Source: Vitreimonas flagellata
GTDB lineage: Bacteria > Pseudomonadota > Alphaproteobacteria > Caulobacterales > Aquidulcibacteraceae
DNA: 64,000 nucleotides
Reading direction: 5' to 3'
Assembly (NCBI RefSeq): GCF_004634425.1
Contig: NZ_SBJL01000001.1
Span: 1,275,001-1,339,000, forward strand
Shown here: piece after piece, positions 42,474-43,638 of the stretch
How the letters are laid out: the number at the start of each line of letters is the position of its first letter
Numbering within the stretch: position 1 is the stretch's first letter
Made by a program: the position numbers and the translations under genes
The notes under the pieces: model-generated
The model's input: only the letters and a program-made list of their open reading frames with translations
What the model was told of the DNA's origin: nothing
The model's database searches: none

Positions 42474-42526
42474 ATGGTTAACGGCCACGCGGACTCTTGA
42501 TTCCTGATTCGCGTCAAGCTTGAATC
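42474..42526 (+). promoter_or_regulatory. ccrM control region: CtrA-type half-site and four GANTC sites
   Basis: ATGGTTAA at 42474-42481 is the reverse complement of the CtrA half motif TTAACCAT. Four CcrM target sites follow: GACTC (42492-42496), GATTC (42499-42503), GATTC (42506-42510) and GAATC (42522-42526). The first three are spaced exactly 7 bp apart. This density is far above chance and fits methylation-dependent feedback on ccrM known from Caulobacter. Confidence 0.8.
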
Positions 42527-42545
42527 GATCCCCTCACGGGGGATC
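42527..42545 (+). promoter_or_regulatory. hairpin that covers the ccrM ribosome-binding site
   Basis: GATCCCC (42527-42533) pairs perfectly with GGGGATC (42539-42545) across a TCACG loop. The GGGGGA run that should act as Shine-Dalgarno lies in the right arm, and the ATG follows one base later. The stem would hide the ribosome site in the mRNA. Confidence 0.6.
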
Positions 42546-42546
42546 A

Positions 42547-43638
42547 ATGTCAGCGCGCCAACTTAAAGACCGGATCATCGAAGGCGATTGCGTCGAGGCG
42601 ATGCGCAAATTGCCGAAGGGCTGCGCCGACCTCGTCTTCGCCGATCCGCCCTACAACATGCAGCTCGGCGGCGCGCTTACCCGCCCGGACCAGTCGAACG
42701 TCGATGGCGTCGACGACGATTGGGACAAATTCGCCGACTTCAAATCCTATGACGATTTCACCCGCGCCTGGCTCACGGAGGCCCGCCGCTGCCTGAAGGA
42801 TGACGGCGGCATCTGGGTGATCGGCGCCTATCACAACATTTTCCGCGTCGGCGCGATCATGCAGGATCTCGGCTTCTGGATTTTGAACGACATCGTCTGG
42901 CGTAAGACCAACCCGATGCCGAATTTCAAAGGCACGCGCTTCACCAACGCGCACGAGACCCTGATCTGGGCCGCCAAGTCGAAGGACGCGAAATACACCT
43001 TCCACTATGACGCGCTGAAAATGCTCAACGACGATCTGCAAATGCGCTCCGATTGGACGCTGCCGCTCTGCACCGGCGGCGAGCGCTTGAAAGATCGCGA
43101 AGGCCGCAAACTGCATTCGACGCAAAAGCCGGAAGCGCTGCTGCATCGCGTCGTGCTCGCCACCTCGCGCCCCGGCGAGACCATTCTCGACCCCTTCTTC
43201 GGCACCGGCACCACGGGTGCGGCCGCCAAGCGCTTGGGCCGTCACTACATCGGCATTGAGCGCGATGAGAATTACATCGCCGGCGCCAAGGCGCGCTTAA
43301 AGAAAATCACACCAGCAGCGCCGGAAGATCTGGCCGTCACTCGCTCGAAGAAAGAGGAGCCGCGCGTGCCGTTTGGACAAGTGATCGAAGCCGGCCACAT
43401 CCATCCGGGCGATTGGCTTGTGGCGCCCAACGGCAAACGCGCCCGCGTGCGCGCTGACGGCTCGTTAGCTTACGGCGATGTCACGGGCTCGATCCATCGT
43501 GTCGGCGCCGTCGTTTCCGATGCGCCGGCCTGCAATGGCTGGACCTTCTGGAGCTTGGAGACCAAGCAAGGCCCCAAGAGCATCGACCTCTTCCGCCTCG
43601 AAATTCGCCGCGAAATGGCGATGAGCATGGGCGCCTAG
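42547..43638 (+). CDS. ccrM: cell-cycle GANTC adenine-N6 DNA methyltransferase
   Basis: A 363-residue beta-class methyltransferase. Motif IV DPPY lies at 33-36 ([10 protein letters not shown]) and comes before the AdoMet motif I ([24 protein letters not shown], about 217), the beta-class order. The C-terminal part (about 280-363, [30 protein letters not shown]) is the extension that separates CcrM from HinfI-type enzymes and is needed for DNA binding. It methylates the A in GANTC and couples replication to transcription in Caulobacterales and Rhizobiales. The promoter carries CtrA- and GANTC-type sites. Confidence 0.96.

Follow-up and report, generated by a model that had tools for sequence, protein, structure and literature searches.

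The window analyzed here is a 64,000-nt stretch (C1:1275001-1339000) of a 3.9-Mb alphaproteobacterial genome (G000), in which ccrM lies downstream of rnhB and of a 241-aa ORF that gave no match to Pfam or NCBIfam at an E-value of 0.001 (Table 1). The predicted ccrM product matches Pfam N6_N4_Mtase (E = 2.4e-64) and C-terminal RAMA (E = 1.4e-18) over its full length, and judging from these domains it is a full-length CcrM homologue. The NCBIfam CcrM model NF050803 aligns with residues 7-352 (E = 1e-183, 610 bits) and its curated cut-off of 830 bits is not reached; as this model is labelled Caul and the score falls below the cut-off, we do not claim the strict equivalog label. A ccrM match was found in 28 of 30 genomes of the same genus. 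The 241-aa ORF ends 79 bp before ccrM in the window. In one relative (L007), unlike in the window, ccrM is apparently preceded by the end of rnhB itself.

Table 1. Features in and around the ccrM upstream region (window coordinates)
Feature	Position	Strand	Remarks
rnhB (ribonuclease HII)	41092..41694	+	upstream gene; Pfam/NCBIfam
241-aa ORF	41742..42467	+	between rnhB and ccrM; ORF list, Pfam/NCBIfam scan
TTAAC, candidate CtrA-type half-site (ATGGTTAAC, the reverse of GTTAACCAT)	42478..42482		genus conservation
GANTC site 1, GACTC	42492..42496		abuts proposed -35; kept in 22/27 genus leaders
Proposed -35 hexamer, TTGATT	42497..42502	+	TTGATTC in 27/27 genus leaders; resembles TTGAC box of other families
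GANTC site 2, GATTC	42499..42503		overlaps proposed -35; kept in 27/27 genus leaders
GANTC site 3, GATTC	42506..42510		proposed spacer; TGATTCG fits YGAKTCG; kept in 21/27 genus leaders
Proposed -10 hexamer, TTGAAT	42520..42525	+	17 bp after -35
GANTC site 4, GAATC	42522..42526		overlaps proposed -10; kept in 25/27 genus leaders
GATCCCC-loop-GGGGATC inverted repeat	42527..42545	+	arms 42527-42533 and 42539-42545; right arm is the Shine-Dalgarno run
Predicted transcription start	42532 +/- 3-4 bases	+	7 nt after proposed -10
ccrM	42547..43638	+	363 aa, GANTC adenine methyltransferase homologue; ATG 42547-42549

Four GANTC sites in 35 bp before ccrM (starting at 42492, 42499, 42506 and 42522), which the first-pass annotation had singled out as striking, are all present and exceed chance. 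GANTC is rare in the window, with 87 sites (one per 736 bp) compared with an expectation of 305 from dinucleotide shuffles, a depletion that is consistent with GANTC methylation in vivo and says no more than that. At the window's rate, about 0.001 clusters of four sites in 35 bp would be expected per window, an arithmetic that ignores the enrichment of intergenic DNA in GANTC, given as more than 1.5-fold in PMC3973325. The triple array GANTC-N2-GANTC-N2-GANTC occurs once in the whole genome. The regular 7-bp spacing noted earlier holds in the window but is not fixed in the genus, where sites 2 and 3 are separated by 7 or 8 bp. The window contains a second cluster of four GANTC sites in 72 bp (11812-11883; starts at 11812, 11847, 11858 and 11879), which is located upstream of the ORF 11959-12387.

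We compared the ccrM leaders within the genus, 27 of which were readable from 30 genomes, two having no ccrM match and one only a C-terminal piece. The common leader reads ATGGTTAACg..GACTCTTGATTCnn(n)GANTC..GTCAAG..GAWTC, followed by a C-run, a G-run and the ATG. All four sites are kept in 18 of the 27 leaders, and site 2 is the sole site kept in L094 and L104. The middle base varies among the leaders both at site 3 (GAGTC in 12, GACTC in 5 and GATTC in 4) and at site 4 (GAATC in 15 and GATTC in 10; L085 was read by eye in both counts). Thus, the GANTC letters are kept while the free letter varies, as expected if selection sees the methylation site. This conservation, the lack of which in close relatives would have told against the annotated cluster, is stronger proof that the cluster is real than the chance estimate. 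The pattern GACTCTTGATTC-N2/3-GANTC was found 19 times in 18 of the 30 genus genomes, and 18 of these occurrences lie directly before the genome's own ccrM. The 19th is the second of two in G028 (G028:C89:15056-15075 and G028:C132:9849-9868, one of which is at ccrM) and may reflect overlapping contigs or a further locus.

We then extended the comparison to 84 other alphaproteobacterial families, each represented by a single genome (leaders L141-L224), a sample that lies outside the window's own family and covers the families among the matches listed, those with matches weaker than ~1.7e-138 being left out (176 of 241 genomes matched). Over the 200 bp that precede the conserved GDC codon, these families have 16.79 GANTC per kb, compared with 1.29 inside ccrM and 3.15 in sequence farther upstream. 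Stretches of 50 bp with three or more sites are present in 44 of the 84 leaders, and none of seven palindromes of the same composition reaches this density in any leader (0/84 each). In a common set of 30 genomes, the ccrM leader contains 18.5 GANTC per kb, versus 2.1 for dnaA, 5.0 for gcrA and 2.8 for recA, and three or more sites fall within 50 bp in 18/30, 0/29, 1/28 and 0/30 of these leaders, respectively. Dense GANTC therefore belongs to the ccrM leader and not to dnaA, gcrA and recA leaders at large. Such density of the enzyme's own target sites in many families suggests that CcrM may set the timing of its own production by sensing the marks it makes. The number of sites before the window's ccrM is not special in the class: 55 of the 84 other families have three or more within the 220 bp that precede the conserved GDC codon, and three or more GANTC are also present in 19 of 29 leaders of the window's family outside the genus. 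The earlier comparison with two sites in Caulobacter, by which the number here was said to be doubled, is thus misleading and carries no meaning, three or more sites being common in the class.

The arrangement of the sites is also shared among families. TTGAC is present in 70 of the 84 other-family leaders, whereas eight other 5-mers occur in 2-18, and the GANTC offsets relative to TTGAC peak at -15 (17), +8/+9 (30) and +19 (34). A sequence was scored as having the layout if it contained an exact TTGAC and if GANTC filled two or more of the positions -24..-12, +5..+12 and +18..+21. This holds for 45/84 families (score 1 in 17, score 0 in 22), 0/83 far-upstream stretches and 2/3086 tiles of the dnaA, gcrA and recA loci. 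Both the TTGAC box and the bins for the offsets were picked once the leaders had been read, so that the counts are descriptive and no test; the control loci give the fair comparison. The spacer GANTC of the 70 TTGAC leaders is exact in 46, has one mismatch in 5 and two or three in 19, while the next five offsets hold 2 exact sites. In the 45 layout leaders, CAnnnT is the hexamer found 17 bp downstream of TTGACN (C in 39, A in 38, T in 42), so that, with this hexamer as the -10 element, the last C of the GANTC at +19 would be its first base. A search of 35 whole genomes for the layout pattern returned 37 matches, 30 of them directly before ccrM, and the reversed-pattern control returned 4; since 32 of these genomes were preselected for the layout and the three without it (G105, G143 and G151) gave no match, this search gauges exclusivity and not frequency. 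Among 74 named loci, 23 have at least two layout positions filled and 11 are without GANTC. The most upstream in-frame ATG of 44 layout families lies 6-9 nt after the -10 in 24, overlaps it in 2 and is 13-74 nt away in 18. This predicts leaderless ccrM mRNAs in relatives with the TTGAC layout, though not for the window. A 10.5-bp periodicity of GANTC in the 84 leaders (z = 6.2) was considered as helical phasing and set aside as separate evidence, because the shared positions +8/+9 and +19 produce it.

The exact layout with at least two positions filled was found in 0/27 genus leaders, including that of the window, and in 0/29 same-family leaders outside the genus. The window has TTGATT in place of TTGAC, and its site 4 lies at +25. 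Two details recall the other families: the genus sequence TTGATTCGC-GAGTC-CGG resembles TTGACGGC-GAGTC-CGG of other families, and site 3 is located at +9 or +10 from TTGATT in the genus, the spacer site of other families being at +6..+10 from TTGAC. Site 3 would then match the spacer site, and the -35 itself would have become a GANTC. We read the window as at best a diverged variant of the arrangement with one GANTC ~15 bp before TTGAC, another in the spacer and a third whose last base opens a CAnnnT -10; this kinship rests on resemblance, and descent is not claimed. The absence of the TTGAC layout from the window's family slightly lowers our confidence in a core-promoter reading and slightly raises that in a CtrA-driven promoter with part of the array in its leader, which is weighed below.

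With these reservations, the 75 bp upstream of ccrM are probably, at roughly 0.6, its core promoter, with CcrM's own methylation sites on functional elements. Position, conservation and the ccrM-specific density of GANTC form the basis of this reading, and from them we infer promoter activity, a start site and kinship with the TTGAC layout. A sigma-70 consensus scan found no promoter in 42300-42700, so that the promoter model is built by comparison only; under it, GANTC falls within the -35/-10 region. The Caulobacter sigma-70 consensus is taken here to be TTGACGS-N10-14-GCTANAWC. TTGAAT is a weak -10, and the corresponding position in 26 genus leaders reads TTGAAT in 9, GAGAAT in 5, GAGATT in 4, GAGGAT in 4, GATGAT in 2, TTCACT in 1 and GATGAA in 1. 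The ccrM leader of the window is predicted to be ~15 nt long. The first-pass annotation had treated the cluster as a leader, for which we found no support: by comparison, the sites would fall at -40, at -35, in the spacer and at -10 of a promoter of the sigma-70 type. Its proposal of a methylation feedback on ccrM fares better and gives the best reading, as the sites are conserved and dense GANTC is specific to ccrM among the leaders tested. The upstream region is thus most likely a methylation-gated autoregulatory promoter, as far as sequence comparison can tell.

In the mechanism that we propose, GANTC 1 would abut the -35, GANTC 2 overlap it, GANTC 3 lie in the spacer and GANTC 4 overlap the -10, with the CtrA half-site upstream. 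Replication would leave the sites hemi-methylated and permit transcription, CtrA helping. CcrM would then remethylate the sites, and full methylation at the -35 and -10 would lower the activity of sigma-70 RNA polymerase and close the pulse. With several sites, the shut-off would come later and be sharper, as every one of them must be refilled. For the window's genome, we infer every step beyond the presence and conservation of the sites, including the effect of methylation and its sign. At other promoters, methylation acts in either direction, which makes the sign at ccrM uncertain: methylation is reported to activate the ftsZ and mipZ promoters (PMC3708114), the mipZ and podJ promoters to lose activity upon GANTC mutation (PMC3667746), and the gcrA promoter of A. 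tumefaciens, which has 6 GANTC in 250 bp, to be repressed by CcrM methylation even in E. coli (PMC11514494).

The half-site raises the alternative that ccrM is driven by CtrA, with the half-site serving as the -35 region, transcription starting at ~42510 and sites 3 and 4 as well as the hairpin lying in the leader, in which case the leader model of the first-pass annotation would be right. The half-site sequence that it had placed at 42474 is confirmed, ATGGTTAA being found at 42474-42481, and GTTAAC is kept in the genus, with TTAA located 17-19 bp before TTGATTC in 25/27 leaders (L085 read by eye). Leaders of Brevundimonas and Caulobacter sp. (L011 and L013) likewise show TTAACC followed by GANTC, the hairpin pairing is kept in 25/26 genus leaders, and CtrA can shield an overlapping GANTC from CcrM at a synthetic promoter, according to PMC5172544. 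Nevertheless, the exact full CtrA box TTAA-N6/7-TTAA was not found, a single TTAA being present from 60 bp before to 25 bp after the start of TTGATTC. In L104 and L009, TTAACC instead lies between TTGATTC and the following CTTGA; the half-site shifts while these two elements stay, which argues that they are the promoter. TTAACC/GGTTAA is also found in 3/53 class leaders with at least three GANTC versus 8/31 others (Fisher p = 0.016). We consider a CtrA-driven promoter of this kind rather unlikely.

Another possibility is that methylated GANTC recruits GcrA bound to sigma-70 and thereby activates ccrM, so that the sites would bind GcrA and not act as sensors for polymerase. The window's genome does encode GcrA. 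With PF07750, which we take to be the GcrA family accession, as query, three matches were obtained, the main gcrA at G000 C2:172045 (E = 4.5e-51) and two further GcrA-domain matches near each other (G000:C1:799922-800383 and C1:801016-801270). The motif YGAKTCG, through which GcrA activates promoters as proposed by Haakonsen et al. (per PMC7987155), is present in the window as TGATTCG at site 3 and mostly at site 2 in relatives. One YGAKTCG is found in 25/27 genus leaders; site 2 is no longer TGATTCG in six genus leaders, and site 3 is TGATTCG in 4/6, but three of these four swaps are in close relatives and thus represent at most two events. Across the class, the motif fits 16/49 spacer sites but occurs in only 35/84 leaders and 7/38 -10 sites. 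Moreover, the TTGAC/GANTC layout remains in 13/18 families without detectable GcrA, compared with 32/66 with GcrA (Fisher p = 0.11), although a divergent GcrA could have been missed in the former. GcrA may therefore modulate the promoter and is probably not required for the design, and we regard a promoter gated by GcrA as unlikely.

Control at the level of translation, in which the GATCCCC/GGGGATC hairpin would hide the Shine-Dalgarno sequence, was earlier put forward on the basis of the inverted repeat. The arms exist (Table 1), at least four pairs can form in 25/26 genus leaders (L104 was out, its ATG not being in range), and RNA starting at 42527 is predicted to fold with -13.7 kcal/mol (z = -2.4). 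In L110 (G024), a ~25-nt insertion between the C-run and the Shine-Dalgarno sequence, itself foldable, leaves both arms intact. However, the predicted start at ~42532 falls within the left arm and removes most of it, and RNA from 42532 does not fold, with only -2.8 kcal/mol (z = +1.8). The hairpin as main finding was accordingly demoted to a rival. L083, with a CcrM that is 98% identical, has lost the GATC extension, and no relative scored clearly outfolds its own shuffles (z = -1.8 for the window and -1.0 to +1.9 for the others). Furthermore, the right arm is nearly invariant and offers no covariation to examine; the C-run adjoins the -10 and the G-run the ATG, a pattern that two independent constraints would also produce. 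A GC-rich discriminator would explain the C-run just as well, and a hairpin is less likely than such a discriminator together with a Shine-Dalgarno sequence; translational control would be quite improbable. We think it highly improbable that the clustered GANTC is a sink or decoy which binds CcrM itself or flags late remethylation and hardly affects initiation. As many as 7-10 GANTC in 220-260 bp are found in some leaders, yet preferred offsets of GANTC to TTGAC are not expected of a sink.

The methylation-gated core promoter can be compared with several known systems. Stephens et al. reportedly addressed the C. crescentus ccrM promoter in 1995. In that species, ccrM is described as CtrA-activated from hemimethylated DNA (PMC2217572, PMC3973325) and as 'most probably' regulated by its own GANTC methylation (PMC3973325). 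We propose here the same hemimethylation-dependent activation by CtrA and feedback through its own GANTC; unlike that promoter, however, the window has four sites on or beside the proposed -35 and -10, and the commonest layout in other families is based on TTGAC. The window's proposed promoter shares dense GANTC with the A. tumefaciens gcrA promoter, whose activity is lowered by methylation without alphaproteobacterial regulators; the effect in E. coli is thus a precedent for one that is free of GcrA. The gene is a different one, and the gcrA leaders sampled are not generally dense (5.0/kb, 1/28). The mipZ, podJ and ctrA P1 promoters are listed as GcrA/CcrM promoters (PMC3667746, PMC4287350). 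Like the proposed ccrM promoter, these cell-cycle promoters carry GANTC in the -35/-10 region, but usually one or two sites in contrast to the four before this ccrM, and 11 of 96 cell-cycle transcription start sites with GANTC had more than one according to PMC4287350.

Some genes for restriction-modification methyltransferases, such as CfrBI, carry their own recognition site in the promoter. The methyltransferase controls its own gene there through promoter methylation, as we propose for ccrM. In contrast to the CfrBI type, CcrM is an orphan enzyme of the cell cycle, coupled to replication, and in many families the proposed ccrM promoter holds several sites at preferred positions.

Methylation feedback on ccrM is thus already known as an idea. 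Two earlier analyses are related to ours: PMC2877005 counted GANTC before cell-cycle genes and, in the parts of that article available to us, drew no conclusion on methylation control, and PMC3973325 predicted regulated genes from GANTC conservation in related species. Within the open-licence literature, most subscription papers being outside its scope, we found no report of a GANTC layout common to the ccrM promoters of the class; neither the four-site array of the genus nor the ccrM-specific layout of many families was found there. The feedback is known from one species, and the layout in about half of the 84 families together with the genus array makes it testable: which site, which strand and which element matter, and, in vitro, whether m6A at the -10 and -35 is sensed by polymerase directly. 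GcrA-dependent and direct effects could be separated naturally in those families that have the layout and no detectable GcrA.

More tentatively, the class-wide ccrM promoter may be an ancestral methylation sensor, in which sigma-70 RNA polymerase reads CcrM sites upstream, in the spacer and at the -10 without GcrA, and from which leaderless mRNA is made in many families. In the window's lineage, the sensor would have been rebuilt such that the -35 itself contains a GANTC, and control by CtrA would be a later addition or replacement. We hold this to be possible although somewhat doubtful. If true, the promoter sequence alone would wire the output of the enzyme to replication.

Some ccrM leaders differ from these arrangements. 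Eight of the 84 families have no GANTC in 200 bp. The leaders of Aureimonas and Hoeflea (L057, L066 and L072) contain no GANTC in 220 bp and a GGTAACCATG stretch instead, which suggests that GANTC was replaced by another control. A different conserved ccrM layout, GANTC..GT-GAATC-CTTTTTTAACC-CTAAT.-GATTC, is present in another genus of the window's family (L129-L135 and L139). In L203 (G244), seven GATTC exactly 15 bp apart, apparently a 15-bp tandem repeat, directly precede the conserved CcrM core.
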